The notes under the pieces: model-generated
What the model was told of the DNA's origin: nothing
Databases searched by the model: none
Seen by the model: the letters and a program-made list of their open reading frames with translations, nothing else
Made by a program: the position numbers and the translations under genes
NCBI GenBank assembly: GCA_019636335.1
Contig: JAHBXR010000015.1
Coordinates: 62,001-126,000, forward strand
From: Pirellulales bacterium
GTDB taxonomy: Bacteria; Planctomycetota; Planctomycetia; Pirellulales; JAEUIK01
Direction of reading: 5' to 3'
Length of the DNA stretch: 64,000 bases
In this document: in pieces, positions 31,301 through 47,294 of the stretch
How the letters are laid out: the number at the start of each line of letters is the position of its first letter
How positions within the stretch are numbered: the first letter of the stretch is position 1

Positions 31301-31818
31301 TGGGGGCTGCTCGACGTGATCTGCCGGTACTCTCGCCCCACCAGACCGCCTTCCCACGAGAGGCTGGCGCAGGCCAGATAAAGAAACACTGATCGTAACT
31401 TGATCGGCGGCCTCCTCCAAGCAGGGGCGCGCCGCAAACCAGGGGCAAACGGCCCGAAAACGGGGCCTTTCGTCCAAGCCTCGCTGCTTACGAAATCGTT
31501 AGAATACGCGCCAGCCGCACGACGACTTCCCGAATCGGCCTGCTCACATCGTGAACTCTCGATCCTCGGGAATTCAACTCCTCACAGACGCGAAGCGTGA
31601 CAACATCGTTCAACTGCCAGCGAGGGAGAGGTGGCACAGGCCGCCGGCCTGTGTTTCCGGGCTCGTTTCCCCACACACAGTCTGGCTGCCTGTGCCACTT
31701 GCCAGATTGCAGGAAGGCCGAGTCGCGGGTCTGGCGTGTGGGGATCGGTCTCGCGGCGTGGTAGCATGAATGGCTCCGCTGTCCCTGCCCTCGCCCCCCA
31801 GCCTTGCACGAGGTTCCC
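31301..31818. other. Divergent intergenic region with repeat copy
   Basis: The 518 bases between the MMPL gene and the PI-PLC-like gene hold one copy of the twin-palindrome repeat (31631-31698). Apart from that, I find no gene, RNA or convincing promoter. Confidence 0.5.
31631..31698 (-). repeat. Twin-palindrome intergenic repeat, copy 1 (inverted)
   Basis: Two short palindromes of the type CACAGGC…GCCTGTG sit inside 11-bp terminal arms (GTGGCACAGGC / GCCTGTGCCAC). Its reverse complement aligns with copies 2 and 3, with the CCGGCGG-centred half on the right. The spacer also shares GGAAAYGAG with copy 2, which confirms the orientation. Confidence 0.8.
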
Positions 31819-32757
31819 TTGCCGCAACTCACCTTACCCCGTTGGAATCGTTCGCTTCGAGCCCGCTTGGCTGTGATGGTCTTGTCGCTCGCCGTGGCGA
31901 GTCTCGCCGCCGAGCGTGCCGCGGCAGCCGACCACTCGGCGACGAATCCCTTTGCCGCGCACAATGCGTATCCCTACCGCCTGCTCCCCGACAAGCAAAA
32001 GTTCTCCCGGGCGCTCGACGCGGGGCTGAAATACGTCGAGGTCGACGTGACCTACGATCCGAACCGCAAGGCGATCGTGGCCACGCACGATAGCACGGCA
32101 CACGGCAATGAACCGGAACTGGGCGAGCTCATCGCGCCCCTCTGGGAACGCTGGGCCAAGACGCCTCCCGAAGACCACTACACGCTCGTCATCGACTTCA
32201 AGTCGGTCAGCCCCGAAATCGTCGAGGCCTTCAAGCAGGTCATCGAACCGCACGCGGAGTTGCTCTCGCGCCTGCCCAAGTCGGAGGGCGGAACGTTCGA
32301 GCCGCGACACATTACCGTTTGCCTCACGGGCGATACCGCGGCGCACCGCCTCTACGCCGATTCGATTCCCGCCGACGGCGAATACCTGGCCTTCGGCGAT
32401 CATGGCTCCGGAGCGTGGAAGGCGAACATTGCCGATTACGTGCCCAGCGCGCCGGCCGGCTTCGTCCGCTTTCTCACCTACGAGAAGCAAACCTTCATGG
32501 ATGCCGCCGACGCCAAAGGGAACGAGCACATCTCGGCGGAGCGGATGAAAGAGGCCGTGCGTCTGGCGAACGAGCGGGGTTATCGCATCCGCGTCTACAC
32601 GGTGAACCCGCCGCGGCGCGGGGGCGTGCTCGACGATGCCTACTGGTCGGCTTGCGTCGACAGCGGAGTCCACATGATCGCCACCGACGCCTATGAAATT
32701 GCCCGCGACTGGTGGAACGAGCGGGCGGAGAAGACCACGCCGGCCGCCCAGCCGTAA
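31819..32757 (+). CDS. Exported PI-PLC/GDPD-like phosphodiesterase domain protein
   Basis: The roughly 312-residue protein has a signal peptide (LRARLAVMVLSLAVASLAAERAAAA read in two parts) and a TIM-barrel phosphodiesterase-like core. Putative active-site pieces are AHNAYPY near the mature N-terminus, KYVEVDVTYD and ATHDST, followed by TLVIDFKS and a late RIRVYTVNPP strand. Family members cleave phosphodiester bonds in glycerophospho- or inositol lipids. I chose TTG at 31819, which has GAGG five bases upstream; TTG at 31804 is the alternative. The gene is bracketed by inverted copies of the twin-palindrome repeat. The exact substrate is unknown. Confidence 0.65.
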   Translation: MPQLTLPRWNRSLRARLAVMVLSLAVASLAAERAAAADHSATNPFAAHNAYPYRLLPDKQKFSRALDAGLKYVEVDVTYDPNRKAIVATHDSTAHGNEPELGELIAPLWERWAKTPPEDHYTLVIDFKSVSPEIVEAFKQVIEPHAELLSRLPKSEGGTFEPRHITVCLTGDTAAHRLYADSIPADGEYLAFGDHGSGAWKANIADYVPSAPAGFVRFLTYEKQTFMDAADAKGNEHISAERMKEAVRLANERGYRIRVYTVNPPRRGGVLDDAYWSACVDSGVHMIATDAYEIARDWWNERAEKTTPAAQP

Positions 32758-32795
32758 GGTATGCTTGGTGGAAGCAACCTTTTCATCTGGAAAAA

Positions 32796-32872
32796 GTGGC
32801 ACAGGCTGGCAGCCTGTGCGGAAATGAGAACCAAGCCAGAGTCAATCAACACAGGCCGGCGGCCTGTGCCAC
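32796..32872 (+). repeat. Twin-palindrome intergenic repeat, copy 2
   Basis: The left half GTGGCACAGGCTGGCAGCC and right half CACAGGCCGGCGGCCTGTG are separated by about 31 bases and bounded by GTGGCAC/GTGCCAC. The copy ends five bases before the chosen ATG of the BON-domain gene, so it replaces the normal Shine-Dalgarno region. Confidence 0.85.
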
Positions 32873-32877
32873 TTTCC

Positions 32878-33660
32878 ATGCCAGCACCACGCATTAGGCT
32901 GCGATCCTCGGTCGTATTTGCTGTCATCTCTGCCGCGCTTTCTCTGGTAGCCTTGCCAGCCCAGGCGCAGCTCTTTGGCGATCGCCCGCTGGGGAGCACG
33001 CTGAGTCGACGGCCCCAGCCCGGTTCGGCCGGACAACTGGAGGCCGCGGCGGCCGCCTCGCAGGGAGAGAGCATGGGGCTCGCCGGGCGGGTGGGCGCCT
33101 CGGTGGGAGAGTTGACGGGTATGGAGCGATTCGTACGCACCAACCGCACACGCAATGATTTCGTCGGTAGCGATCTCGCGGACCGCGTCGGCTTCATCGG
33201 TTCGATCCAGGGAAACACACGCGGCGCGATCCGCTCGGCCATCACGAACTTGCGCCCGCTCGTGAACGAACAGATCAATCGCATTCCGCCCGAACCGCTC
33301 ACGCGGCAGGCGCGTCCCTATGCCCCGCGTTACCAGATCGGCTTCGACTACCCCCTGCCTCCTAGCGAGGAAGTTGAGGCATCGCTGGCGCGGCAGTTGC
33401 TACGGGTGCCTGGTATGGAACGCCTGGGCCCGGTCGAGGTGTCAGTGGTTGGCCAGACGGCGATCCTACGTGGCGCTGTCGCATCTGAGCACCAGCGGGA
33501 CGTGGCGGAACAACTGGTGCTCCTTGAGCCCGGAATTCGGGAAGTCCAGAATGAGCTGACGGTGGGGCCGCCGGTTGAGTCACCATCGGTACGTGAGCTG
33601 CCTGAGGCGCCGGCGGCATCATCGCTTGGTACGCCCGTGGTGCCGGGGCTGGTCCCCTAG
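32878..33660 (+). CDS. Exported BON-domain protein
   Basis: The 260-residue protein starts with a good signal peptide (IRLRSSVVFAVISAALSLVA, cleavage after AQA). A low-complexity region and a conserved-looking middle segment (NRTRNDFVGSDLADRVGFIG) follow. The C-terminus is a BON domain (VEVSVVGQTAILRGAVASE, then QRDVAEQLVLLEPGIREVQN), a fold thought to bind phospholipid and found in OsmY and secretins. The ATG at 32878 gives the clean signal peptide, although it sits right after repeat copy 2 and has no Shine-Dalgarno site; ATG at 32824 is in frame but would run through the repeat. Its last 299 bases overlap the convergent Pro-rich ORF. Confidence 0.8.
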   Translation: MPAPRIRLRSSVVFAVISAALSLVALPAQAQLFGDRPLGSTLSRRPQPGSAGQLEAAAAASQGESMGLAGRVGASVGELTGMERFVRTNRTRNDFVGSDLADRVGFIGSIQGNTRGAIRSAITNLRPLVNEQINRIPPEPLTRQARPYAPRYQIGFDYPLPPSEEVEASLARQLLRVPGMERLGPVEVSVVGQTAILRGAVASEHQRDVAEQLVLLEPGIREVQNELTVGPPVESPSVRELPEAPAASSLGTPVVPGLVP

Positions 33661-34678
33661 CGGGCTGCGTTGCCGCGGGTTGCGGTTGCCAACCCGGCGG
33701 CTGTTGATAACCGGGCTGTGGTTGCCAGCCGGGTGGCGGTTGATAACCGGGCTGTGGCTGCCAGGCATTCTGAGGTTGCCACGGAGCAGACGCCTGCCAG
33801 GGTGTCGGTGTTTGCCAGGGTTGTTGCGGCTGGCCCACCGCCGGTAACGGCGCGACGACCGACGATCCAGCGCTGGCTTGCATTTGCACTGACCGAGACG
33901 GCACCGCCGACATGATGCCCGGCGCTATGTCGATCGTCGACGTCGTCATACGCTGCCGATGATCTGGTGGCAGCGGCAATCCGGCCACCTGGGGAAACTG
34001 TCCCGCGGAGATCATGTGCGAAGCCGCCTGCACGCCCAACGGCGCTGGCGGAGCTTGTTCGACCACCGTTGGCGCGATGCCCGGCAGAATCTGCGTGTTG
34101 ATCTGCGACGTGACGACGTTGCCTTCCTTCGACTCGAAGCGTGCCACCAGGCTGATCTTGCGCTGGGGGCCGCCCACCTCATCCCACGGAATCCACACGC
34201 TGTACGAATGCCCGATCTTCGACTTGCTGTAATGCTCGGGCATCTGCTCTTCGGTGAAGACGTATTTGCGGTCGGGCGTGCAGTTCGTACCGTCGCGGTT
34301 CGTGTCGTCGAAGGTGAAGACCATCAACTCGCCGGCGACCTTGATCGGTTGATCCGAGCGGCGTTCGTAGTACATCAATCGCCCGCCGAACCCGCGCACC
34401 GCCGGCTTGCCGGGCCGATTCAATACCGTGTGCGTCCACACCGCCACCATCCGATCGGGTTCGCGTGGCTTGGCTTTTTCCGACCAGGGAATCGACTCGC
34501 GCAGGTCGAAACCGTCGGCCCGGGCAGCACGCATCGAGTCGTGCGTGCCGATGCCCGTTGCCAGCAGCACGAGAGTCGCGCCACTCAACAGGCGCAGGCA
34601 ACGTCGCGACAGGCCAACCCGAGGGCTGGTCCGCGAGGCGGCCTGCTGCTGGCACGGTTGTCGAGCGGATCGATTCAT
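33362..34678 (-). CDS. Exported Pro-rich protein of unknown function, last gene of secretion operon
   Basis: The 438-residue ORF has a signal peptide (CLRLLSGATLVLLATGIGTH), a conserved-looking globular part (about residues 60-200, VAGELMVFTFDDTNRDG to RKISLVARFESKEG), and a long Pro/Gln/Ala-rich tail. The tail contains 12-residue repeats such as QPGYQQPPGWQP. The ATG at 34678 has GAGGAAGAG upstream and lies 14 bases after the secretin stop, so it belongs to the type II secretion operon. The last 100 codons lie antisense to the BON-domain coding sequence; the tail composition remains Pro-rich there, so I keep the full ORF but the true end is less certain. I do not recognise the family. Confidence 0.7.
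   Translation of the reverse strand: MNRSARQPCQQQAASRTSPRVGLSRRCLRLLSGATLVLLATGIGTHDSMRAARADGFDLRESIPWSEKAKPREPDRMVAVWTHTVLNRPGKPAVRGFGGRLMYYERRSDQPIKVAGELMVFTFDDTNRDGTNCTPDRKYVFTEEQMPEHYSKSKIGHSYSVWIPWDEVGGPQRKISLVARFESKEGNVVTSQINTQILPGIAPTVVEQAPPAPLGVQAASHMISAGQFPQVAGLPLPPDHRQRMTTSTIDIAPGIMSAVPSRSVQMQASAGSSVVAPLPAVGQPQQPWQTPTPWQASAPWQPQNAWQPQPGYQPPPGWQPQPGYQQPPGWQPQPAATQPARGPAPAPRAYQAMMPPAPQAAHVPMVTQPAAPPSAHSGLPEFRAQGAPVVPPRPAGAQMRQRHVGSPSGQPLTPRPGPGVPYQAPVATAAPAMPQLPR
33685..33756. repeat. Two 36-bp tandem repeats
   Basis: Two adjacent 36-base units (33685-33720 and 33721-33756), differing at only a few positions, encode the 12-residue Pro/Gln/Gly/Trp repeat in the tail of the minus-strand Pro-rich protein. 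A degraded third unit follows. Confidence 0.85.
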
Positions 34679-34692
34679 TGCGTAGCTCTTCC

Positions 34693-37600
34693 TCAGTTGC
34701 CGTTCGGCGGTAGTACCCTGCGTGAAGTAGGACTCGCCACGACCGGCGCCGTCGCGGGCGCGACCAGGTTCACCGGCGCCGCGTGGGGCGGCCTGGCCTC
34801 TCCCATGGCGTCTGGCACCGGCAAGGGGCGCGAGCCCGGCGCCGGCAGCAGCTCTTCTCCGCCGATACGGGGACCTTCAGCCGGCGCCGCGTTTCCCTGG
34901 GGAGCAGGGAAGTAGGGCACGGCGGGCACATTCTCGGGCACGGCGTTCGGCGAATTCGCTCTGCCGGCGGGAATGCTCTCGGCCGGCACCGGGATGCCCT
35001 CGGCTCCCGGATCCTGATCCGGATAGATCACCTGAGTCGTCGACATGCAGTGCTCGCAATCGCCGCGACGGCAGATCTGGCACTCGCCGTGAATACGCTC
35101 GACATCGGCCAGGCACCAGCTCATGCGCGACGATTCGATCTGCTTCATCCGCTCGGCGTCCTCGCCGTTGCGAATGACGTGCGGCGTCAGAATGATCAGC
35201 AGCTCGGTGCGCTGGTTCTGCTCGAAATCGTAGCGAAACAAGTGCCCGAGGATGGGAATCGACGACAGGTAGGGGACGCGCCGCGTGGTCGTCACGTGAT
35301 TGCGGAAGATCAACCCGCCGAGCACGACGGTCTGCCCGTCGGCGGCACTGATCGTCGTTTGGGCGGTTTGCGTGCGAATGCGGGGCGAAAGGATCGGATC
35401 GCCATCGGTGTTCACCGCGATGGGAATGCCATCGGCGATGCGTCCCAACTCCGAGCGCTCGGCGTCGACCTCCATCACCACGTTGCCGTCCGGGCTGATG
35501 CGCGGCGTGACCCCCAGGATGAGCCCGACGTTGACCAGCTCGATGTTGTTTACCTGGCCGACCTGGTTGATCGTGGTGCCGGCGACGCGCGGCACGCGCT
35601 CGCCCACCTGAATGAACGAGGGCTGGTTGTCGAGCGTCATGATCTGCGGTCGGCTCAAGACCTCGACGCGCTGGCACTGCTTCAGGGCGCGAATCAGAAT
35701 GTTGATGCTCTCGTTGCTGGCACTGAGCACGAGCCCGCCGAAGCCAAGCTCGGCGTTGGTGCGACCGACCGAGAAGCTCGACAAGGCCTGTCCGGCGAGG
35801 TTCTCGCGCGTCGACATCGACTGCGCGCTGCCGCTATTGCCCAGGTTCTGATTGTTGAAATTGAACCCGGGAATCAGCGTGGTCGAGGTCTGATTGGCCG
35901 TTGTGCCAATGTCCACACCTGGATTGCGGGTATCGGTGGTGCCCGTCGAGCCTGTGGTGGCTAGGTTGCCGACGATGCCACGATCGAAGAGCAACGAGTC
36001 TTGCAGGCCCAACTCCACACCGAACTCGTCGATGTTGTCGAGCCGCACCTCGGCGATCAGCACCTGGATCAGCACCTGCGGCGGCTGCGCGTCGAGCTGC
36101 TCGACCAGCGTGCGAATATCGTCGAAGTAGCGCGGCGTCGCGCTGATAATCAGGCTATTGCTGACCGGCTCGGGCACGACCACCACTTCACGTTCGATCT
36201 GCTCGAAGGGACTCGGCGTGCCGGGCACGGCAATCTGAACCATGCGTTCGCTGCGGAGGAACTCATTCACGGCCAGCGCCACGTCGATGGCCGGTGAATT
36301 CTTCAGCCGGAAAACCTGGCTCTTGCGATCGCTGACGTCACTCTCGTCGAGCCGCAGCAGGATCGCCTCGACCACCTGCAACAAGCCGGCCGAGCCGGTG
36401 GCGATGATCGAGTTCGTGCGCAGATCGACGCTGAATCGCAGCGGAGCGAGCGAACCTTCGTCGGTCGGCCCGGCCAGCTCGGGTCCCAGAGCTGTCGTCG
36501 CCTGCGGCCCCAGCAGGGTGCGCATCATCTCGACCAGGGCGGCGGCGTCGCCATTCACGATCTTGAAGACCTTGATCTGCGCCGTCGCGGCGGGCATGCC
36601 GTCGAGCTGTTCGATCAACGCGGCCAACAGTTCCATGCTGTCGGCGGGCGCCGATACGAGCAGCGTGTTCGTGTGCCCGTCGGGCGTGACGCGGACATCG
36701 GAGAGGACTCCCGACTCCAACATGCGCTGTCCTTGCGCATCGACCGTGAGGAATTGGAGGATGGACTGCTTTTGCTGTGCCGCCGGCGTGCCGGGGGCCG
36801 TGCCGCGCAGGGCGTTCTCGAGAATCGGGGCCATGTCGGTGGCCAGCGTGTTGCGCAGCTTGAAGACGCGCAGTTGGTTGACCACCCCGCTCTTGCCCGA
36901 GTCGAGCCGTTCGATCAACAGCTCCACCTCGGCCAGGTCGCGGGGCACCGCCTGCACGATCAGCGAGTTCGACGCGGCGTCTGCCACGATGACCACTTTC
37001 GCCCCCAGCCCCAGGCGGTTCGTGAAGAACTGCTGGATCGTCGTTTGCGTCGCCACCGCGGGGGCATACTTCAAACGAAAGACGCGCAACTGCGTTTCGG
37101 CATCGACGGGCTGATCGAGCTTCTCGACCAACTCGCGCATCACTCGCAAGGCCTCGCCCCAGCCGACCAGGAGAATGGCATTCGGCTTGACCAGCGAGAT
37201 CGACGTCACGCGGCCTTGTCGACCGGCGAGCAGATCGGTCTGCACCTGGGTCAGCACCGTGGCGATGCCCGCCGCGGGGGCATGGCGCAAGTGATAGACT
37301 TCGATCTCCGGCTCGGTCTCGGCACTGATGCGTTCGATTTCTTGAATGATCCGCACGAGCTCGTCGACCTCGCGCTCGTCGCCGCTGAGGATCAACACGT
37401 CGAGATCAGGAAGGACCTCGATGTCCACATTGCCGCCGAGCTGTCGCAGGCGATCCTGCTGGGCGGCGGCCTCGGCATCGCCCGTGGGAGCATCCGGCGG
37501 AGGAGACGCCTCGGCCGGCGCGGGAGACGCACCGGGCTGCAGTAGCAAGTTGGCAAAGGCCACCGCGCCCGAAGGATCGGCGGTCGTCGTCGAGGCTGCC

Positions 37601-38424
37601 CGGGCTGGATTCCTCTCGCGCGACGCGCCATCCGAGGGCGCCGGCAGCAGCCGCTCGCGATCGAGCTTTCCCTCGTAGGCATCGGTGGCACGCCGAACCT
37701 TGGTGAGATCCGCCTTGTCGAGCGGTATCACTCGCACCGACTTGCCCAACGGTTGGCGCGGGCTGTCGAGCACGGTGATGAGGCGCACCATGCGTTCGGC
37801 GACGGGAGCCGAGCCGCGCACCATGAGCTGATCGTGCGCGCGGTTCAAACCGAGTTCGATGCGCTCGCCGGTGCTCAAGATAATCATGTAACCCGGCAGC
37901 CCGGCAGCGACCTGCGCCATGGGCTGGATACGCCCCCGGAACATGTCGACCAGGATCGGCTCGAGCTGCGAGGCGCGCGCGCTGTGCAGTTGAACGAAGC
38001 GCACCGTCGGGTCGCCGGCCACGTCGACACGCGGTGGCACGTGAATCGCCGGCGCGTCCGTATCGGGCGGAGGGGGCGAAAGAGTGGCTGTCGGCAGGGA
38101 CGCCGCTGGAGCCGTCTTCGGCTGATCGAGCGCGGTGACCAGCCCGGCCACGATCTGGTGGGCTTCGGCCGGTCCGCGCACGAGGAGTTGATTCGAGGCC
38201 GTGTCGACGGCGATTTCGGCGCCGGCCAGTCCCGCCACCAGCTTGCGTGCCAGGGGCTCGACGTCGGCGACCGAGGCGGCCCGCAGCCGGTAGGCCTTCA
38301 TTTCGCCATCGGCGGCGTGCGCGCGGCCGGCCTGACAGCATGCCAGCAACATCGCCAGCGCCGCTACCGCCAGCGTGCGCGTGGGCCGTCGAATTGCGTA
38401 TTCGTCTAAAGCTTTGAAAGACAC
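34693..38424 (-). CDS. gspD: Type II secretion secretin GspD with extended N-domain array
   Basis: The protein has about 1243 residues, nearly twice the usual GspD length. After a signal peptide (TRTLAVAALAMLLACCQAG) there are about seven or eight N1/NolW-like modules (repeated D-ASN-L-V-G / LIEQLD patterns). The secretin core follows (VLSRPQIMTLDNQPSFIQVG, GQTVVLGGLI, VPYLSSIPILGHLFR, LLIILTPHVI; the last near residue 1046). A Cys cluster near residues 1100-1125 contains GECQICRRGDCEHC. It forms the outer-membrane channel. GTG at 38424 gives a clean signal peptide; TTG at 38565 would place the start 22 bases after the upstream gene but adds 47 implausible residues, so the start is uncertain. 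Confidence 0.92.
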   Translation of the reverse strand: MSFKALDEYAIRRPTRTLAVAALAMLLACCQAGRAHAADGEMKAYRLRAASVADVEPLARKLVAGLAGAEIAVDTASNQLLVRGPAEAHQIVAGLVTALDQPKTAPAASLPTATLSPPPPDTDAPAIHVPPRVDVAGDPTVRFVQLHSARASQLEPILVDMFRGRIQPMAQVAAGLPGYMIILSTGERIELGLNRAHDQLMVRGSAPVAERMVRLITVLDSPRQPLGKSVRVIPLDKADLTKVRRATDAYEGKLDRERLLPAPSDGASRERNPARAASTTTADPSGAVAFANLLLQPGASPAPAEASPPPDAPTGDAEAAAQQDRLRQLGGNVDIEVLPDLDVLILSGDEREVDELVRIIQEIERISAETEPEIEVYHLRHAPAAGIATVLTQVQTDLLAGRQGRVTSISLVKPNAILLVGWGEALRVMRELVEKLDQPVDAETQLRVFRLKYAPAVATQTTIQQFFTNRLGLGAKVVIVADAASNSLIVQAVPRDLAEVELLIERLDSGKSGVVNQLRVFKLRNTLATDMAPILENALRGTAPGTPAAQQKQSILQFLTVDAQGQRMLESGVLSDVRVTPDGHTNTLLVSAPADSMELLAALIEQLDGMPAATAQIKVFKIVNGDAAALVEMMRTLLGPQATTALGPELAGPTDEGSLAPLRFSVDLRTNSIIATGSAGLLQVVEAILLRLDESDVSDRKSQVFRLKNSPAIDVALAVNEFLRSERMVQIAVPGTPSPFEQIEREVVVVPEPVSNSLIISATPRYFDDIRTLVEQLDAQPPQVLIQVLIAEVRLDNIDEFGVELGLQDSLLFDRGIVGNLATTGSTGTTDTRNPGVDIGTTANQTSTTLIPGFNFNNQNLGNSGSAQSMSTRENLAGQALSSFSVGRTNAELGFGGLVLSASNESINILIRALKQCQRVEVLSRPQIMTLDNQPSFIQVGERVPRVAGTTINQVGQVNNIELVNVGLILGVTPRISPDGNVVMEVDAERSELGRIADGIPIAVNTDGDPILSPRIRTQTAQTTISAADGQTVVLGGLIFRNHVTTTRRVPYLSSIPILGHLFRYDFEQNQRTELLIILTPHVIRNGEDAERMKQIESSRMSWCLADVERIHGECQICRRGDCEHCMSTTQVIYPDQDPGAEGIPVPAESIPAGRANSPNAVPENVPAVPYFPAPQGNAAPAEGPRIGGEELLPAPGSRPLPVPDAMGEARPPHAAPVNLVAPATAPVVASPTSRRVLPPNGN

Positions 38425-38587
38425 CGGTTCTGTCGCTTGGCAGTGTTCCCCCCTGCGGCGACTTGTTCGTAGGCGCACGCTGCGCGCTTCGGCGCATCGC
38501 TTGCCCGGCTCAAAGATCGGTTGTCCCGCCTGCCGGCTACAGCCTTTCTGAGGAGATTCCGCCAACTGGCGAAAAATACTGGGCCGT

Positions 38588-39475
38588 TTAGAGCTCGGGG
38601 GGCAAAGCCGTTGCCTGGCTAAGGTTTTCCCCCAACGTGATCAGCCAGCGTTCGTTGTCCGAATCGATCACGACGTCGAGCGCGTCGATCTCGGCCACGC
38701 GGCCCCGAAACTGCCCCACTTGAAAGGGCTGGCCGATCCCCAGCTTCAAGATCTCGCCCGTCGTGCGAATGGTGAACCACGCCTCGAGCTGTCCGCTCAC
38801 TTCGAGGATGGCCGTGAGGAAGGCGAAGTCCGATTCGTCGTAGGCCCGGGCGCCACCTTCGCCAAACAGGTTTCGCTCGACGATGGCGCGATACTCGACC
38901 AGGTTCTCCGCGGCCAGACGATTCGACGTGCGCCCGCTGAGACGATCCTTGCGTTCCCCCTCGGGCAGCACCAGGGCCTCGATCGACATCGAGAGCTCGA
39001 GCCGCTGCGAACGCGGAATGGGGGTGATCGAAAGTCGTTGCACCTGGTGCAAGTGGTCCGCGCGATAAAAGTTGTAGAGGAAGCTGGTAAGCTGCTCGAG
39101 CGAGCCACGGCCGCGGACGGTGAAGGGGAGCTTTTGGTAAACGTCCTTCTTGCCGACCGTCTCGCCCGAGTCCACGTTGGGCTGCTCGAAGCCCGCGACA
39201 CGCACGAGCTCGAGCAACCAGTTCTGATAGAGCGAACGAGCCAACTCCAGATCGGTCGGCAACGACTGCTGCTGCCAGGCCGTCAACTGCTTGCCGGCGG
39301 CTCGGGCCAGGCGCAGTTGCCCTTCTTTCTTCTCGATATCTTTACGCAATCGCTCGGCACGGGCACGGCGCTCGTCGAGCGGGCCTTGCAACATGGCCTG
39401 GAACAGCCAGTTTCCCAGGTAGGCCACGAGCATGCCGCCGACGATGATCGCTAGGATGCGTTCGCGCTTTTTCAT
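38588..39475 (-). CDS. GspM/PilO-like inner-membrane protein with GspC-like tail
   Basis: The 295-residue protein has one N-terminal helix (LAIIVGGMLVAYLGNWLFQA) and a coiled coil (ERRARAERLRKDIEKKEGQ). A PilO-type ferredoxin-like domain follows (LPFTVRGRGSLEQLTSFLYN). The tail, from about residue 195, begins with VERNLFGEG and continues with a small beta domain that resembles the GspC homology region. No separate gspC is present, so a fused M/C function is possible. It would link the cytoplasmic-membrane platform to the secretin. The start ATG overlaps the stop of the preceding gene (ATGA). Confidence 0.75.
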   Translation of the reverse strand: MKKRERILAIIVGGMLVAYLGNWLFQAMLQGPLDERRARAERLRKDIEKKEGQLRLARAAGKQLTAWQQQSLPTDLELARSLYQNWLLELVRVAGFEQPNVDSGETVGKKDVYQKLPFTVRGRGSLEQLTSFLYNFYRADHLHQVQRLSITPIPRSQRLELSMSIEALVLPEGERKDRLSGRTSNRLAAENLVEYRAIVERNLFGEGGARAYDESDFAFLTAILEVSGQLEAWFTIRTTGEILKLGIGQPFQVGQFRGRVAEIDALDVVIDSDNERWLITLGENLSQATALPPEL

Positions 39476-41130
39476 GGCCGGCCCCCCGTCGACGTGTTGG
39501 TCGAAGTGGCCGTTTCCGCCGCGGCGTTCTGCGTCGCCGCGGAAGATGCCCCGGCGATGCTGGCTGCCGAGGTGGAATCACTGGCCGGAGCGGCTGGTTC
39601 GGTCGTCGTCGCCGGGGCGGGCACGGTGGGACCGGCCACCGGGGCCGGCGCCGTGCGGTATTCCTCGCGATCGCGCCGTGCCACGGCCAGCGACGATTCG
39701 AATTGCCAGGTGTAGGTGCGCTCTTGAATGGTCGCCTGCACGCGTTTGCTGCGCACCTCGTGGTGCTTGTCGCGGAGATTGCTTTCCATGCGGCCGACGA
39801 TCGAAGGATCGCGCACGAGCCCCTGCATCTCGACGGTGCCCCCCTTGCTCGAGGCCCGGGCCATCGTGAGTCGCAGCAGCACGGCGTCGCGGGCACTGGG
39901 GAATCGCAACGACAGATCGCGCAACTCGTCGAGCCAGACGATATCGTTATCGGCCCAAAGCTTGATTTCCTCGACGGCGGCCCGCTTCGCATCGGCGCGA
40001 CGCACCAACTCATCGAGCTTCTTGGACTCGGCGGCCAGCTTGTCGTTCAGCTCGTCCGCGGCCGAGAACTTGCCCCAGGCCACATAGCCCCCGGCGAAGA
40101 CGATCGCCGCGATGACGCTGGCCGCCAGGCCGACGAGCAAGCGCCGATCGAGCGGCTGCGGCATCTTGCGAGGATCGAGCAAGTCGATGGCCGGCTTGTT
40201 GCCATGCGCCTCGTCGAGCAGCATGCCCACGAGCGCCCCCAGACGACCCGTGCTCGCGGGCGCGTGCCTGGCCAGTTCGCCCGTCGTGGGGAGCTCGGCC
40301 AGCGGATCGAACGCCTGCACGGGCAGCTTGAGTTCGTGCTCCATGCGCTGCATCGTCTCGACGTGCTCGTGCGGCCGGCCGCAGAGATAGATCGCCTCGA
40401 CGGGGCTTCCGCCCGGTTGATTGGCCACGGCGACCAGCGTGCGACGGATTTCGGCCAGCAGGCCGGTGACGTCTCCGTGCTCACCTTGTGGCAGCCGCAC
40501 CGAACGAGAGACCAGCACGCGCGTGCCGACCAGCACGAGCAGTTCGGCCGTGGTCGGCGCCAGCTCGGCGATCAGCACCACTTGCTCGGCCGAGGGCATC
40601 AAGCGACGGAAGCCCGAGGCCAGGGCGTAGGGACGCACGAGCATGCGTTCGGGGGTCCAGCCGGCCGCGGAGCAGGCCTCTTGCAACTCGTGCATTTGAT
40701 CGGCCGACAAGGCCACGGCATCGACCTGTCGGGGCACGGTCGGGTCGTCGGACAGCGGCACGAAGTCGAGCACGCTGTCTTCGCCGACAAAGCCCGCCTC
40801 GCGCATCGCCTGCAATCGCACCAGCTCGGGCAGATCGGCATCGGGCACGGGGGGCACGACGAGCTGTCGCAGCTCGACTCGATTGCGGCCAACCCCCAAC
40901 AGCAGCTTGGGGCGGGCCATGCGCTGCCGGCCCAGGGTCTCGCGCCACTGCGCCGCGAGGATCTCTCGCGACGGATGCTTCAAGGAAATCTCGCCACTCT
41001 CCGTGGGAACCGCCTCGGGGGCCAGCGGGAAGGAGCCGGCTTGCTCGAGCGCGACGCGGCGACCGCGCACCTGCGCCAAGATATAGCGCGCTTCGGCGAT
41101 GTCCCATTCGATGGCCAGCAGACGCGGCAT
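39472..41130 (-). CDS. GspL-like protein (PilM actin-like ATPase fold fused to PilN)
   Basis: The 552-residue protein begins MPRLLAIEWD and has an actin-like PilM fold to about residue 320 (VLIAELAPTTAELLVL, EAIYLCGRPHEHVE). One membrane helix (LVGLAASVIAAIVFAGGYVAW) precedes a PilN-like coiled coil and ferredoxin-like domain, and then an Ala/Thr/Pro-rich tail. This is the GspL architecture, which recruits the GspE ATPase to the membrane platform. It is 112 bases downstream of gspK and overlaps the GspM-like gene by four bases. Confidence 0.85.
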   Translation of the reverse strand: MPRLLAIEWDIAEARYILAQVRGRRVALEQAGSFPLAPEAVPTESGEISLKHPSREILAAQWRETLGRQRMARPKLLLGVGRNRVELRQLVVPPVPDADLPELVRLQAMREAGFVGEDSVLDFVPLSDDPTVPRQVDAVALSADQMHELQEACSAAGWTPERMLVRPYALASGFRRLMPSAEQVVLIAELAPTTAELLVLVGTRVLVSRSVRLPQGEHGDVTGLLAEIRRTLVAVANQPGGSPVEAIYLCGRPHEHVETMQRMEHELKLPVQAFDPLAELPTTGELARHAPASTGRLGALVGMLLDEAHGNKPAIDLLDPRKMPQPLDRRLLVGLAASVIAAIVFAGGYVAWGKFSAADELNDKLAAESKKLDELVRRADAKRAAVEEIKLWADNDIVWLDELRDLSLRFPSARDAVLLRLTMARASSKGGTVEMQGLVRDPSIVGRMESNLRDKHHEVRSKRVQATIQERTYTWQFESSLAVARRDREEYRTAPAPVAGPTVPAPATTTEPAAPASDSTSAASIAGASSAATQNAAAETATSTNTSTGGRP

Positions 41131-41242
41131 CGGAGTCTCTCGCAGTGCGGCCGGGTGGAGGGCAGGGGGGGCAGGCGTGCGGGGCGGAACCAGTCGCGAG
41201 ACGGTCCATCGCCTTCGTGGCCGGGCGTATCGTTCGGGCGGG

Positions 41243-42826
41243 CTATCGCGAGGCTACCGGCGCCGTGCCGGCGGACGTAGGCTGGACACTGGGCGCGGCT
41301 CCCAATTCGGCCAGCGTATAGCCGCGCCCCAGGTGCTTCAGACCCTTCCAGCATAACAGCCGGCTCGGGGCGCTGGTAGCATCGATTACGAACTCGGCTC
41401 GGCTCGAAGCGCTAAATTCGTCGAAAAAACCGACCACCTGGCCTCGAAAGACGTCGCCGCCACCGGTAATCATCGGTTCGAGGGTCTTCAACCGGTCGAG
41501 CGTCACCAGCCCTTCGAGGAACAGCCACGCCGCGTGTCGCTGGTCGCCCGGCGAAGTGGGATCGTAGAGCGAGGCACGCTTCGACACGATCTCGTCGGCC
41601 AGCATGTCGTCGATGCCAGGGACGCCCAGCAGCACTTCGCGCGGGGCCAGGTTGATATTCACCCGCCCCACGATGCGCGGTTCAGTCCGCGTCGTCACCA
41701 CATCGAGCAGCCGGGGCAACTCGGTGGCCAGCTTCGACGAATCGGCCGCGAGCGGACTGTCGACGGGCGTGGGCGATACCCGGCCTGGCTCGGCGAGCGC
41801 GGTTCTCGCGCCGATCAAGTCGTACACCGAGGCGATCGTATGCAGCGCCGGCCGAGAGAAATCGAGTTGCACGCCCGCCTGCCTGCGTGCGGCGCCGCCG
41901 CCTGGCGCCGGTCCGAACTGCCGCATGGCCACGATGAAGGTGGCCCAATCTTCATCGAGCGCGGCCGAAAGCCGGCTGTGCAGATCGACCAGATTCGGAT
42001 CGTTCAGGTTGATGCGCGGCTGTCGCTCGGGCGTAAGATTCCCCTCGGCGCTGTCGAGCGTGAGATACTCCGACCAGCCGCGTACCGTCACCGCCGGCGA
42101 AAGCGCGCCTGCCGCGGCGCTGGACATGCGCGACATCTCGAACGGCTCGAGCCGGCCATTGCAGTTCAAGTCGAGCCCGAAGAGCAGCTCCTGGCTGACG
42201 TCGCGCACGGCGAGCAGTTCCTCGAGGGACGAAGGCACCCGATTGGCCGCCATGCGGGCCGGCTCTTGCTGCGCATAAAACTCCGACTCGGCCCCCAGTT
42301 CGCGAGGCGTGTCGTCGGCGTCGACATAATCGAGCAGCGCGTCGGCCAGTTCGGGCGTCATGCCCGGCAGCCGCGCCAACGTCGCCTGGGCATGACCGGG
42401 ATGACTGCGATCCCATTCCAGCAACTTGTGCAGGTTGAGACGGGCCGATTCGTTCTCGACGCCAAAGCGAATCCGGCCCGACTCCGAGTCGTCTGCCTCG
42501 TACGTGACGATGCTGAACCGGCCGTGCGCCGATTGCGTTTCGTCCGGCGCCAGCACGGCGACGGCCGCCAACTCTTCGGGATTGTCGTACACGCCGCCGA
42601 GCTCCGAGCGCGCCTCGCTCGAAAGATCGAGCATGGCGGCCACGCACAGCGCACCCGACTCGGACAACTGGCGGGCTTGCAGGTCTCGTCCGCCCAGTCG
42701 TGCCGCTTTGTTCTCGGTGAACATGATCTCGGCAAAGGTAAAACCGGCCAGGCTGAGCATGGCGATGACGATCAGCACCACGACGATCACCATCCCGCGG
42801 CGTCGGTTGGCTGGGGACAGTTTCAT
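41243..42826 (-). CDS. gspK: Pseudopilin GspK
   Basis: The 527-residue protein has the GspK-type N-terminus RRGMVIVVVLIVIAMLSLAG, lacking the usual Glu at +5. It also has a PGMTPELADALLDYVDADD helix-hairpin-helix segment and a second one near VNINLAPREVLLGVPGI. GspK caps the tip of the pseudopilus. It is longer than usual because of an insertion around residues 200-330. Its ATG overlaps the gspJ stop codon (ATGA). Confidence 0.9.
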   Translation of the reverse strand: MKLSPANRRRGMVIVVVLIVIAMLSLAGFTFAEIMFTENKAARLGGRDLQARQLSESGALCVAAMLDLSSEARSELGGVYDNPEELAAVAVLAPDETQSAHGRFSIVTYEADDSESGRIRFGVENESARLNLHKLLEWDRSHPGHAQATLARLPGMTPELADALLDYVDADDTPRELGAESEFYAQQEPARMAANRVPSSLEELLAVRDVSQELLFGLDLNCNGRLEPFEMSRMSSAAAGALSPAVTVRGWSEYLTLDSAEGNLTPERQPRINLNDPNLVDLHSRLSAALDEDWATFIVAMRQFGPAPGGGAARRQAGVQLDFSRPALHTIASVYDLIGARTALAEPGRVSPTPVDSPLAADSSKLATELPRLLDVVTTRTEPRIVGRVNINLAPREVLLGVPGIDDMLADEIVSKRASLYDPTSPGDQRHAAWLFLEGLVTLDRLKTLEPMITGGGDVFRGQVVGFFDEFSASSRAEFVIDATSAPSRLLCWKGLKHLGRGYTLAELGAAPSVQPTSAGTAPVASR

Positions 42827-44226
42827 CGCGCACCTCCCGGAGCCGGTGCGTTCGGACGGAAGAACGACGGAATCGAATTCCGCCGCGTCGGCGCGGGAGG
42901 CGTCGGAGGCGCCATCGTCGAAGGCAGGGGAGACGCTGGGGCCGCCGGCAGCGGCGCGTTGAGCTCGTCGGGACTGCTCAGCTCTGGATAGGGATTTTCC
43001 TCGCGACGCGGACTCGCCAGCGGCAGATAGACCACCAATCGATAGTCGGGCAAGTCTTCTGCCGACGTGCCATTAGCGGCGTTGCCACCCGCGAATGCAC
43101 CGGCAGTTTCTGGCTCCCGCGAGCTCGAGCGATCGGCCGCTGTTTGCCGCGTCGCCGACGTGTCGGCAGGGTCGGCGCGCCGTTGGCCCGCGCGGCGCGG
43201 GCGTCGTGCCTCGTCGGCCGGCTCGGCGAGCCAGAAGGCAATGTCGACGGCCATCGGGAGACCGCCGTCGGACGCGCTATCCCACGAACTGTACCAGGTG
43301 CTGCCATCGAAGTATCGAAACGCGACGCGCTCCACCTCGGGGGTCAGCGTTTCTGCGAGATCTTCCCACGCAACGTCACTGGGTGGACGGTACTCGTTCG
43401 CGCGCGCTGCAGAAGAAGTTGTCATGGGAGATGACGCCGAGAGGCCGGCAGCGGGCGTACCGTAGTCGCTCGTCGACTCGGGTTCGGCTGCTGTCGCCGC
43501 GTTGGAACGGAGCGGCTCTTCGCCCGACGATTCGTGCAGCCAGGGCTGTTCGCGGCGCACGAGCCCGGTCTGTGCGATCCCGGCTTCGGCATTCACCGTG
43601 GCTGGCGAGAATTCGTTTTGCTGCGCGAGCATCCGATCGGGGTTAGTCGAGTCGTAGCAGAAGTAGCTCACCTTTCGCAGGGCGCCTGCCGAGTCACTGT
43701 TGGAAGCCCCCGTGACGAAGGCACTCGACTCGGCCGAGGGGGCCTCGCTGCCGATCACCAAGGCCGCCAGCGACTCTTGCCCCCCCCCGGCGCGGACGCA
43801 AACATCGAGCCGATCGCTCGTGCCCGCCAGTCGCAGGGTGCGAGCCACAGGGGTCTCGGTCGAATCTCGCAACGGGGAGAGCACGGTCGTGCGATACAGC
43901 TCGGCCGGGGAGAGTGGATCGGCGGCCGACTCGGCGGAGGGAAGAAAATCGCTCGGCAGCGCGAGCGGTTGGTCTCCTCCGGCGGATCTGGCCGCGGACT
44001 CGACGACCGCTCGCCGCAGATCGCGCGAGATCTGCCGCAGCAACGAACGTGCGAGCTGCGCCTCTTCGACGTGCGTGCGGCCCGAATCGAACGACCGCAT
44101 GAAAAGCGACAGCGCACTAAACAGACCGGCCAGCAGCGCCGTCGAGAGGGCCAGCGCCAGCAACACCTCGAGGATCGAGAAACCCGAGCGGCAGCGCGCG
44201 CCAGGGATAAGAGTCGGGCCCGTCAT
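42823..44226 (-). CDS. Pseudopilin GspJ-like protein, enlarged
   Basis: The 467-residue protein begins with a prepilin leader and the motif GFSILEVLLALALSTALLAG, with Gly at -1 and Glu at +5. A LRQISRDLRRAV helix and RVAFRYFDGSTWYSSWDSAS region fit GspJ. It is more than twice the usual GspJ length because of Ser/Ala/Pro-rich insertions and a Pro-rich C-terminus. It starts three bases after the gspI stop and overlaps gspK by four bases, so it is inside the operon. Confidence 0.82.
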   Translation of the reverse strand: MTGPTLIPGARCRSGFSILEVLLALALSTALLAGLFSALSLFMRSFDSGRTHVEEAQLARSLLRQISRDLRRAVVESAARSAGGDQPLALPSDFLPSAESAADPLSPAELYRTTVLSPLRDSTETPVARTLRLAGTSDRLDVCVRAGGGQESLAALVIGSEAPSAESSAFVTGASNSDSAGALRKVSYFCYDSTNPDRMLAQQNEFSPATVNAEAGIAQTGLVRREQPWLHESSGEEPLRSNAATAAEPESTSDYGTPAAGLSASSPMTTSSAARANEYRPPSDVAWEDLAETLTPEVERVAFRYFDGSTWYSSWDSASDGGLPMAVDIAFWLAEPADEARRPRRAGQRRADPADTSATRQTAADRSSSREPETAGAFAGGNAANGTSAEDLPDYRLVVYLPLASPRREENPYPELSSPDELNAPLPAAPASPLPSTMAPPTPPAPTRRNSIPSFFRPNAPAPGGAR

Positions 44227-44229
44227 CGT

Positions 44230-44691
44230 TCATTCTCCCAGGGGCAGCGACGACGAGAGAGACGCCGCGCCGGACGCCGGCGACCTGGGCGATTCGAGCC
44301 CCGGGGCGTTCGGCGCACCGCTGCTCGCATCGCGCATCCACCGCACGAGCGCGAAACGCACGGGACGTTTCGCCTCGGGCAGATCCTGTGCCACGGTCAC
44401 GCGCAGCGAGGAGAGTCCTGGCTGCTCGAGCGGCTCGCGATCGACGCGCCACAGCCAGCCCGGCGCGTCTTCGAGCGGTTGGTCGCCGTGCGATTCGCTC
44501 GACGCGGCGCCGGCGAGAATCTCGGCCAACTTCGATTCGCACAGCAACTGGGCCTGGGTTTGATCGCGCGCGGCCAGGGCGTTGAGGCGCCCCAGCCGCG
44601 CGAGCTCGCCCAGCACGGCGACCGCACCGAGCAAAATGCCGGTCGCCAGCAGCACCTCGAGGAGCGAGAATGCCGCGCGGCGACGTCTCAT
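44230..44691 (-). CDS. Pseudopilin GspI-like protein
   Basis: The 153-residue protein starts with a short basic leader and AAFSLLEVLLATGILLGAVA. The residue before the cleavage site is Ala in place of the usual Gly. A CESKLAEILAG helix matches the GspI/PilV type. The ATG at 44691 overlaps the stop codon of gspH (ATGA), which decides the start over the longer ORF. It is predicted to form part of the pseudopilus tip. Confidence 0.82.
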   Translation of the reverse strand: MRRRRAAFSLLEVLLATGILLGAVAVLGELARLGRLNALAARDQTQAQLLCESKLAEILAGAASSESHGDQPLEDAPGWLWRVDREPLEQPGLSSLRVTVAQDLPEAKRPVRFALVRWMRDASSGAPNAPGLESPRSPASGAASLSSSLPLGE

Positions 44692-45377
44692 CGGACCAGC
44701 CTCTGCGCGGCGGGGGCCTGGTCGGCCATCTGCGACACGCCGGTCAGGCCGCGCAACGAGACGACGACTTCGTCGCCGCGCTCGTTGCGGAGCACAAACT
44801 CGGTCGTCGACGTCGTTCCGTCCGGATAAAACACGATCGGCGTCGACCAGCTCACCACGTCGGCCGTTTCGCTGGCGAACGTCCCCACCGCTTCGGTCGC
44901 GGCGGTCTCGCCGACAAACATCGGGTCGGCAAAGACCACTCCGGACGGTAGGGCGAACTCGGTCCAGCCGATGTTCGCCCCCTGGTCGCCGTTCGGATTG
45001 TCTCCCGCCGACGTGTAGTCGACGGTGGCGCACTCCTCGTTCTCGGCCGGGTTCAAGTCGAGCATGCGGCGCACGCGAAACTGTCCCGACTCGACCGCGT
45101 ACTGCAGCTCGTACACGGCGTCCGACTCCATGGCCGCCAGCCGCGTGCGCGACATTTCAACCCGCACCTGCTTGGCCGCCTCGTGCAAACGCGCGCCGCC
45201 GAGCGGTCCGCGCAGCGAGGGCCAGGCGATGCCAACCATCGCCACGATCAACCCCAGCACGAGCAACAGCTCGAGCAGGGTGAAGGCGCGGCGAGACCGT
45301 CTCGATCCCCTACGCGACACGACTGGGCCAGCCCGCCGTGTCGCACCGTGGTCAACTCTCGGATGTCTCTCTCGCAT
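44688..45377 (-). CDS. Pseudopilin GspH-like protein
   Basis: The 229-residue protein has a long basic leader and then RRAFTLLELLLVLGLIVAMV, again with Ala instead of Gly before the cleavage site. The following HEAAKQVRVEMSRTRLAAME helix and FYPDGTTSTTEFVLRNERG strand pair are typical GspH features. AAGGGGAA lies just upstream of the ATG. The gene starts nine bases after gspG and overlaps gspI by four bases. Confidence 0.87.
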   Translation of the reverse strand: MRERHPRVDHGATRRAGPVVSRRGSRRSRRAFTLLELLLVLGLIVAMVGIAWPSLRGPLGGARLHEAAKQVRVEMSRTRLAAMESDAVYELQYAVESGQFRVRRMLDLNPAENEECATVDYTSAGDNPNGDQGANIGWTEFALPSGVVFADPMFVGETAATEAVGTFASETADVVSWSTPIVFYPDGTTSTTEFVLRNERGDEVVVSLRGLTGVSQMADQAPAAQRLVR

Positions 45378-45386
45378 GCGTTCCCC

Positions 45387-45860
45387 TTAACGACTGGCCG
45401 TTTGCGTACCATTTGCCTCGGGATTCCAGTTGCCGATGTCGTCTTCGGTGCCATCTTCACCGTCGGGACCCATCGACCAGATGTCGGGGAAATCGCTGGT
45501 GTTGTGCGTGGGGGGATAGGCGTACTGATAGTCGTGCCCCCAGGGATCCTGCGGAATGCTGGAGTCGAGGTAAGGACCTTTCCACTGCTCGGGATTCTCC
45601 ATCTCGGCCGGTTCCTCGTGCAGCGCGACGAGGCCCTGCTCGGTCGTCGGATAACCGTTCATGTCGAGCGCGAACATCTCGAGCGGCGATTTGAACAAAC
45701 CGATCTGGCTCTTGGCGGCGTTGATGTTCGCCTTCTTCTGCGTCCCCATGAAACGCGGCGCCACCAGGCCCAGCAGGATCACGAGGATCGCCATGACCAG
45801 GAGCAGTTCCATCAACGTAAAACCTTGACGCGCCACCGGGCGGCGAGTTCTGCGTGACAT
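45387..45860 (-). CDS. gspG: Major pseudopilin GspG
   Basis: The 157-residue protein has the canonical leader and cleavage motif QGFTLMELLLVMAILVILLG (Gly at -1, Glu at +5). The GspG-specific block GYPTTEQGLVALHEEP and the PWGHDYQYAYPP loop follow, and the C-terminus PDGEDGTEDDIGNW is the calcium-binding end of GspG. I chose the ATG at 45860 because GGGAGAAGAAG is directly upstream; the longer ORF is not coding there. Confidence 0.95.
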   Translation of the reverse strand: MSRRTRRPVARQGFTLMELLLVMAILVILLGLVAPRFMGTQKKANINAAKSQIGLFKSPLEMFALDMNGYPTTEQGLVALHEEPAEMENPEQWKGPYLDSSIPQDPWGHDYQYAYPPTHNTSDFPDIWSMGPDGEDGTEDDIGNWNPEANGTQTASR

Positions 45861-45943
45861 GTTCTTCTTCTCCCTAATACAGGTTGCAGGATGTTGGGAA
45901 AGACGCGACGGTCTCTCCGCGGGGATGACTCGAATGGTTGCGT

Positions 45944-47155
45944 TTAACCGATCGTGGCACTCATCTGAAACACGGGCAGCAGCAGTGCAATCACGACGCA
46001 CAAAATGACACTGGCCATCACGAGCAGCATCGCCGGCTCGATCAGGCGCACCATGAGATCGAGCTGGCGGCTCGTCCGGCGGTCCAACCCGTCGGCGATG
46101 TTCACCAGCACGTTCTCGAGATTGTTCGACTCCTCGGCGACGCTGATCATCTCGACCACCGTCTGGGGAAACAGCCCGCACGAGGCCAACGGCCCCGCCA
46201 GCGTCTGTCCCGAGGAAATGTTCTCGCCCGCTTGTTGGATGGCCTGGGCCATGACGCGATTGCCGGTCGAATCGCTGCTGATCTCGAGCGACTTGAGGAT
46301 CGGCACGCCATTGTGCAGCAGCGTGCCCAGCACGCGGCAGAAGCGCGACACCGCCAGGTTCAAGAAGATCGGCCCGGCCACGGGGACCTTGATCTTCAAG
46401 CGATCGCGCACGAGGCGCCCCTTCTCGGTCTTGAGCTGCTGGCGGATCCAAAGGACCACGCCGATGGCCAGGGCGACGAGCAAGAGCCCGTAGCGACCGA
46501 TGAAATCGCTCGTGCCCAGGAGGGCGGTCGTCATGAAGGGCAACTCGCCGCGTTCTTCCAAGCGGGCGAACAATTCGGCGAACTTCGGCACGAAGAAGAC
46601 GATCAGCACCGTTACCGCGGACGATCCGGCAATCGCTAACAGCGCGGGATACGTGAGCGCGCCGACGACGCGGCTCTTGAGTTCTTCCTGCTGTTCGATG
46701 AAGTCGGCCGTGCGCTGCAGCACGTCTTCGAGAAAGCCCCCTTCGCCGCCGGCGCGGACCATGCTCACGGTCAACTCGTTGAAGACCTGCGGATGCCGCG
46801 CAAAGGCCGCATCGAGCGTCGAGCCTTCGGAGACCTGCGTCCGCACGTCCCCCATCACTTCGGTCAGCAGCGGGTTCGACGACTGCCTGGCCAGAATCTC
46901 GAGCGACCGCATCAGGGGCACGCCGCTCTTCATCAAGTCGGCCATCTGCGCGAGCGTCGCCGCGAGGGCCTGTTGCTTGACCTTCTTCGGTTTCTGCAAC
47001 GCCGCCAAGCGCGAGGTCTTCTCCTGCACGAGCCGCAACGGGAACAGCGCGCGATCGCCCAGCAGCACGAGCGCCTCGCGCTGCGTGGCAGCGGAGATCG
47101 TGCCGGCCACTTCCTGGCCTTGGGCGTTGCGGGCGGTGTAAGCGAAGTCGGGCAT
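45944..47155 (-). CDS. gspF: Type II secretion inner-membrane platform protein GspF
   Basis: The 403-residue protein starts MPDFAYTARNAQGQEVAG and has the duplicated GspF domain: QMADLMKSGVPLMRSLEILA in the first half and RVLGTLLHNGVPILKSLEIS in the second. Three hydrophobic segments are present, including VTVLIVFFVPKFAELF and the C-terminal PAMLLVMASVILCVVIALLL. It is the multispanning platform protein that contacts GspE. The ATG at 47155 matches the usual family start. Confidence 0.95.
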   Translation of the reverse strand: MPDFAYTARNAQGQEVAGTISAATQREALVLLGDRALFPLRLVQEKTSRLAALQKPKKVKQQALAATLAQMADLMKSGVPLMRSLEILARQSSNPLLTEVMGDVRTQVSEGSTLDAAFARHPQVFNELTVSMVRAGGEGGFLEDVLQRTADFIEQQEELKSRVVGALTYPALLAIAGSSAVTVLIVFFVPKFAELFARLEERGELPFMTTALLGTSDFIGRYGLLLVALAIGVVLWIRQQLKTEKGRLVRDRLKIKVPVAGPIFLNLAVSRFCRVLGTLLHNGVPILKSLEISSDSTGNRVMAQAIQQAGENISSGQTLAGPLASCGLFPQTVVEMISVAEESNNLENVLVNIADGLDRRTSRQLDLMVRLIEPAMLLVMASVILCVVIALLLPVFQMSATIG

Positions 47156-47220
47156 CGGCAGCAGAAACAAGGGTGGTGTCTGAAGAAAGATTCCGTCGAA
47201 TCAGGCTTCCATCAAGTTCA

Positions 47221-47294
47221 GTGGCACAGGCTACCAGCCTGTGAAATTTTCTTTATCCCTGCTCATTCATGCACAGGCCGGCGGCCTGTGCCAC
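47221..47294 (+). repeat. Twin-palindrome intergenic repeat, copy 3
   Basis: It has GTGGCACAGGCTACCAGCC at the left and CACAGGCCGGCGGCCTGTG plus CCAC at the right, with a 28-base spacer. It lies in the 182-base gap between gspE and gspF, the largest gap in the operon, where it could affect mRNA stability or expression ratio. Confidence 0.85.

Follow-up and report, generated by a model that had tools for sequence, protein, structure and literature searches.

GTGG-tagged hairpin dimers in a Pirellulales genome: an apparently orphaned REP family with RAYT relatives in frame inside host genes

The window analysed here, a stretch of 64,000 nucleotides, is G000:C15:62001-126000 of a Pirellulales bacterium genome (G000; a draft assembly of 6.38 Mb in 60 contigs, 99.13% complete). 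Three short repeats lie within it, at 31631-31698 (copy 1, 68 nt), 32796-32872 (copy 2, 77 nt) and 47221-47294 (copy 3, 74 nt), exactly where the initial annotation had placed them. We read them, with a probability of roughly 0.8, as GTGG-tagged dimers of a repetitive extragenic palindrome and its inverse (REP–iREP), of the kind called bacterial interspersed mosaic elements (BIMEs) or REPINs. They would belong to a stranded, mostly neutral population whose REP-associated tyrosine transposase (RAYT) has been lost or is absent.

Anatomy and setting of the three copies

All three copies begin with GTGGCACAGGC and end with GTGCCAC, and all follow one order: a GTGG tag, a CACAGGC-N5-GCCTGTG palindrome, a linker, a second palindrome that mirrors the first, and CCAC. 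The left REP of copy 1 (31631..31653, plus strand) joins the tag to CACAGGC-CGCCG-GCCTGTG; a strandless linker of 22 nt (31654..31675) separates it from a right REP on the minus strand (31676..31698) that has the CCAC end and a decayed stem, CACAGTC..GCCTGTG. In copy 2 a left REP of GTGG and CACAGGC-TGGCA-GCCTGTG (32796..32818, plus strand) faces, across 31 nt, an iREP with a CCAC end (32850..32872, minus strand). Copy 3 has a 28-nt linker between GTGG with CACAGGC-TACCA-GCCTGTG (47221..47243, plus strand) and its iREP, again ending in CCAC (47272..47294, minus strand). The earlier description of common ends and two palindromes per copy holds for the ends throughout, and for perfect palindromes in five of six, the second one of copy 1 being the decayed exception.

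With up to three mismatches allowed, the window holds 12 matches to the palindrome against 4.69 expected in shuffles, a count reached by 0 of 100 shuffles, and all six matches with no or one mismatch fall in the three copies. Folding of the copies as single-stranded DNA gives z-scores against shuffles of -4.0, -6.6 and -4.9 for copies 1, 2 and 3, respectively. Their linkers show no detectable kinship.

Between copies 1 and 2, and outside the element itself, lies a gene for a GDPD/PI-PLC-like phosphodiesterase (31876..32757, plus strand; PF03009, E 3e-6), which the two copies had been proposed to bracket as an inverted pair. Whole-element comparison scores 35 in the inverted register and 20 in the direct one, but the excess stems from the arms; the linkers have no significant similarity in either register (500 shuffles: 1.0 direct, 0.17 inverted). 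Because each element is nearly symmetric, an inverted bracket round this gene carries no special meaning, and we rejected the special pair. Copy 3 occupies the 167-bp gap between a T2SSE (GspE-like) gene upstream (47338..49035, minus strand; PF00437, E 9.9e-139) and a T2SSF (GspF-like) gene downstream (45944..47170, minus strand; PF00482, E 1e-57), which is indeed the widest gap in this minus-strand gene run. The window yielded no RAYT gene, again as first noted, and no Y1 gene either.

The repeat family and the RAYT genes of the genome

The window copies are part of a much larger set. G000 contains 67 perfect CACAGGC palindromes, against none for a reversed-pattern control, and 53 tagged hairpin sites (26 + 27), so the family is one of many copies and not of a few. 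Placement relative to genes was assessed in 1,095,619 bases of the genome, a sample partly picked for containing copies, in which genes predicted with a simple codon model cover 85.5% of the bases. Although so little of this DNA is free of predicted genes, 65 of the 71 palindromes found there (no or one mismatch) are intergenic: 37 lie in co-directional gaps, 19 in convergent and 7 in divergent ones, and 2 border the end of a stretch or contig. One of the others overlaps a predicted gene and five fall within such genes; two of the five make up a single dimer, in a 950-aa frame that matches no Pfam family. Copies are therefore many, scattered and mostly extragenic, as is typical of GT[AG]G REPs, and occurrence in coding sequence is infrequent.

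In most copies GTGG stands directly before an 8-bp stem with a 3-nt loop, the tag–hairpin arrangement of GT[AG]G REPs, whose stems measure 7-20 bp and whose loops are short; the tag is usually preceded by AA (51/61 and 54/61 tagged ends at the two positions), and the triloop is of the GCY type. Read from the tag side the loops are asymmetric (TGCCA in 14, CGCCG in 9, and similar readings), and one strand is therefore marked. Pairs were counted among 80 hairpins, after untagged two-mismatch hits and a CACTGGC family had been dropped. Neighbours within 130 bp form 21 pairs; the tag points outward on both sides (GTGG-hairpin...hairpin-CCAC) in 17 and the reverse arrangement occurs in none, the other four having one member that is untagged or faces the same way. 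Two opposite REPs across a short linker are the hallmark of BIMEs and REPINs. Most dimers carry linkers unrelated to one another, but one dimer is used at two places: copy 1 has a near-twin at G000:C14:28020-28079. Since the two linkers are almost identical, the comparison suggests that the dimer moves as a unit. Double-foot hairpins are also present, for example at C18:18389. A comparison of inner with outer flanks (281 versus 4 pairs scoring at least 14) was discarded, save for the C14/C15 pair, because the inner window contains the partner hairpin and the result is inflated.

Two other repeat arrangements were seen in G000. Three composite repeats, at G000:C1:10365, C1:218687 and C12:2336, are alike in sequence both within the CACAGGC hairpin and beyond it, and GTCAGGTAC hairpins stand some 75-95 bp away, so that REPs are nested here in a larger repeat. 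A third hairpin family, GGGTGCCACTGGC..GCCAGTGGCACCC, has seven hairpins in the sampled DNA (C5:129646, C12:2092, C14:27835 and others) and is also seen some 120 bp away from a RAYT of another genome (G001:C37, L378).

The genome has three genes that match the RAYT profile NF047646 and four Y1 genes that match PF01797. None of the three RAYTs is flanked by the CACAGGC REP. One of them, C3:317329 (L081, G000:C3:317018-317925), has an open frame across the whole profile and is flanked by canonical REPs of its own, GTAG-GTCAGGTAC, a family with 19 perfect hairpins in the sampled 1.1 Mb. No tagged hairpin lies close to the RAYT on contig C24, and that on C2 contains an in-frame TAG stop. All three are of other types than the RAYT that accompanies the CACAGGC hairpin elsewhere. 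Separately, an IS200-like Y1 gene (G000:C35:28323-28770, L061) is flanked by CCCAGGGC..GCCCTGGG hairpins, a pair of which recurs about 109 bp apart at C1:257807-257935.

Hairpin-linked RAYTs and the nature of the family

Within the order, the tagged hairpin occurs in 12 of 296 genomes. One of these, G245, has 99 tagged sites, and its RAYT at C9:184274-184663 has the CACAGGC hairpin on both sides. Upstream of this gene (L364 2437-2802) six tagged hairpins form a tandem array with a 73-bp period, and beyond them comes an opposite array whose period is 40 bp. RAYTs bracketed by the hairpin were also found in Phycisphaerae (L330) and Elusimicrobia (L286). The linked RAYT gene that the initial annotation had asked for was not found in G000, but exists in another member of the order and in two further lineages. 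A three-row RAYT profile, A1, searched in 294 genomes of the phylum, has a match at E<=1e-20 in 39; among 30 loci read from that search, L386, L387 and L388 carry GTAG-tagged CACAGGC-type hairpins beside the RAYT. The REPtron arrangement, a RAYT flanked by the same REP, is thus seen at these three loci as well as at G245 C9, L330 and L286. Related RAYTs accompany related stems, CACCGGC (L368, L372) and CACGGGC (L381), and in L286 (position 1342) a REP lies in frame inside the RAYT, between the HuH and Y motifs.

A WQ motif and a YIxNNP-like motif are present in the G245 C9 and L286 proteins, L330 reading YIYWNP; the HuH motif is SHHH in G245 and DHVH in L286 and L330. As a search profile PF01797 alone was set aside: it recognised the cognate group weakly (30.7 and 21.6 bits) and gave no linkage in the flanks of its hits, and it was NF047646 that revealed the G245 C9 gene. 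In a tree of 66 proteins (duplicates removed by hand; matches below 26 bits or with fewer than 90 readable residues dropped), in which many nodes are poorly supported, the CACAGGC-linked RAYTs fall in at least two branches, and RAYTs lying inside alaS and fabZ genes, discussed below, are intermixed. The tree thus does not show one stem for one lineage.

A scan of 84,980 species genomes returned at least 119 stretches with the tagged hairpin. Record titles among the matches listed name Planctomycetota, Verrucomicrobia, Deltaproteobacteria, Cyanobacteria, Chloroflexi, Acidobacteria (Bryobacterales), Omnitrophota, Elusimicrobia, Peptococcaceae and haloarchaea; where a title gives a genus or order only, the phylum is the one we presume. 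Two or more hairpins occur at 38 of the 119 listed loci, the reversed control giving 1 in 817,881 bases, and some single-hairpin hits may be due to chance. At these loci the outer loop bases pair in 140 of 147 tagged hairpins, and 112 of the 140 have a TCC or TCT triloop, neither feature having been a requirement of the search. The usual description of REPs is that they are specific to a species or group, whereas the CACAGGC tagged hairpin with its triloop is met again in many phyla, next to related RAYTs.

Copy number, placement between genes, the GTGG tag, the orientation of the dimers and loop asymmetry all support the proposal that the repeats form a REP/BIME-like family of the RAYT type. 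According to published work, TnpAREP reads a GT[AG]G tag and hairpin on a single strand and cleaves beside it (PMC8266576, PMC6006769, PMC3733652), and the tag and hairpin of the CACAGGC family fit the REP rules given in PMC6006769. By analogy, a tyrosine HUH enzyme (RAYT/TnpAREP) would recognise one strand of an element with the consensus GTGG-CACAGGC-X-(G/T)CY-X'-GCCTGTG by its tag, stem and loop; in the dimer two such units stand face to face with a short linker between them. The tagged strand would be cut and joined much as by the published enzymes, the dimer being excised and inserted as single-stranded DNA. The mover would come from the NF047646-type RAYT group whose members begin RR-LPH. 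Since such a gene adjoins the hairpin in other genomes and was not found in G000, the copies here are probably stranded: G000 may have lost, or never kept, a RAYT of the RR-LPH type, and its copies would persist between genes, often at the 3' ends of mRNAs, as mostly neutral hairpins.

Several observations weigh against this interpretation. No insertion event was observed, and a family present in so few genomes of its order is patchy. In G000, no clear CACAGGC copy lies within 1.5 kb of the NF047646 and PF01797 genes, where there are two-mismatch hits only, and profile A1 has no match at E<=1e-20; the assembly is a draft, so a cognate RAYT could sit in a gap. Five palindromes lie within predicted genes, as noted above. 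In G245, flanks were examined for 12 of the 25 NF047646 matches, and that of C9 is the only RAYT among them flanked by the hairpin.

It is conceivable, if unlikely, that the family is still active in G000, moved in trans by a RAYT of its own or by one in an assembly gap. The near identity of copy 1 and the C14 copy would fit this idea, as would the C3 RAYT with its open frame and its own REPs. However, those REPs have a different stem, the C24 RAYT is without a tagged hairpin near it, and the C2 RAYT is interrupted by a stop. A miniature inverted-repeat transposable element of a classical (DDE) transposon, with the outer GTGGCACAGGC/GCCTGTGCCAC as terminal inverted repeats and a full-length transposon elsewhere as the mover, would also be short, have inverted ends and reach many copies. 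We consider it highly improbable: each end is a complete hairpin with a tag and a strand-specific loop, single tagged hairpins are numerous, no common direct repeat is seen by eye flanking copies 1-3, and the same hairpin brackets RAYT genes.

The hairpins might instead be regulatory structures under selection rather than a mobile family, serving as bidirectional terminators or stabilising mRNA 3' ends. Most copies do sit downstream of a gene, between co-directional or convergent neighbours, and a hairpin followed by a T-run is matched twice on copy 3 and once on copy 2. Yet the copy 3 matches are on the plus strand, opposite to the gspE and gspF genes, and the terminator-like counts are near those of shuffles (3 versus 1.5; 2 versus 0.7), so that the case for a terminator is weak and we set it aside. 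Linkers unrelated between dimers and a tagged site in only one of six other genomes of the family also make regulation a very doubtful primary explanation. A minor secondary role of the hairpins at mRNA ends is possible.

As probably stranded REP–iREP dimers, the copies can be set beside known systems. The GTAG-superfamily REPs of PMC3733652, such as GTAG-20 of O. terrae (tag mostly GTGG), have the same GT[AG]G hairpin foot and the same opposite-orientation dimers, and are likewise intergenic and RAYT-linked; the present family differs in its CACAGGC stem, its spread over many phyla and the lack of a linked RAYT found in G000. The REPtrons of TnpAREP subclasses 2.4 and 2.7 (PMC6006769) have the same WQ and YIxNNP-like motifs, GT[AG]G REPs and double-foot hairpins. 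Subclass 2.4 also resembles L286 in having a REP inside the RAYT between HuH and Y, and these REPtrons, like the present family, are scattered over phyla. The HuH motif of subclass 2.4, however, is NH[IFV]H, whereas the hairpin-linked RAYTs have SHHH or DHVH, so that any assignment of these to a subclass would be tentative. The E. coli REP/BIME shares the architecture and presumed mechanism but has another stem, which is bulged, and a GTAG tag (PMC8266576), in line with the initial remark that the sequence is not that of enterobacterial REPs. A search of open-access papers with the letters of the hairpin gave, among the matches listed, no paper on a bacterial repeat by title. Within the GT[AG]G kind, the GTGG-CACAGGC family is new, and it is apparently orphaned in the G000 draft.

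RAYT modules in frame within host genes

The surprising part of the analysis is the whole RAYT modules that relatives carry in frame within housekeeping genes. The RAYT of L330 lies in frame in purH: in a single frame of 965 aa it is flanked on either side by PurH sequence, and no other PF01808 gene was found in that genome. Of 66 A1 matches listed, 17 share an open frame with a Pfam domain of a host gene, in several cases with the host domain recognised on one side only. The hosts are fabZ (8), Eco57I-type methylases (3), alaS (2) and, once each, an N6/N4 methylase, a DUF1156/D12 methylase, an FAD/FMN oxidoreductase and a helicase. A verrucomicrobial carB frame (L219) also carries a RAYT. Loci with in-frame modules are L330, L433, L421, L430, L418, L425, L428, L432, L219, L395, L399 and L422. 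These are draft assemblies, which calls for caution, but the same site recurs in several genomes.

The recurrence is clearest in the planctomycete family of G342, represented by 16 genomes. All 16 have alaS, and in four a RAYT module occupies one site, between VRVL(S/T)MG and ELCGGTH; the frame is open in G342 and G363, a frameshift lies upstream in G415 and the module is broken in G539. The other 12 have a short linker at the site and no RAYT. G342 has one alaS, and G363 one match. In fabZ a RAYT was read at one site in eight of the 16 genomes (G342, G399, G415, G486, G507, G529, G539 and G565). G317 and G381 have the same split in long frames, and G430 has a short REP-like peptide there; fabZ is uninterrupted in G557, G518 and G363, and G445 and G497 lack such a match. 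Because all 16 genomes have a second, full-length FabA-like match, the RAYT-carrying fabZ is not unique.

The NHVH and Y-T-x-x-NP motifs (or close variants) are intact in all seven fabZ frames that were read through. The ratio of nonsynonymous to synonymous substitution (dN/dS) is 0.08-0.27 for the RAYT part, for which 10 of the 15 pairs gave a computable dS, and 0.06-0.21 for the fabZ part in all 15 pairs; the set comprises six genomes, G486 and G565 having been dropped, and high synonymous divergence makes the ratios rough. From single copies, open frames and this constraint we infer that the fused proteins work.

We think it somewhat better than an even chance that the RAYT clade of this hairpin leads an intein-like life, with modules in frame in essential or core genes and a host protein that works as one chain. 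The module would consist of the transposase reading frame and REP-derived linkers, forming an inserted loop domain of the host protein. Inside a gene that the cell cannot do without, the transposase would be protected against deletion and tied to steady expression, and stop-poor hairpins would make in-frame insertions survivable.

In-frame REPs have been published before, both in genes and within RAYT genes (PMC3733652, PMC6006769). The Rickettsia palindromic elements (PMC3733652) are likewise hairpin repeats found in frame in genes, a likeness that concerns the RAYT relatives and not the window; the part of that paper available makes no mention of a RAYT gene in a host frame. In the open-access literature searched, the sections read of PMC6006769 included, we found no description of whole RAYT modules in host genes, and a search for RAYT together with alanyl-tRNA synthetase gave no match.

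For the window, the question of what the repeats are is in effect settled in favour of mobile-hairpin dimers rather than regulators of the phosphodiesterase or secretion gene, and G000 offers a case of a REP population without a linked RAYT found in the genome. If the in-frame modules of related RAYTs are functional fusions, they would show a way in which a bacterial transposase can maintain itself within essential genes, and would bear on the puzzle of the long survival of single-copy RAYTs.

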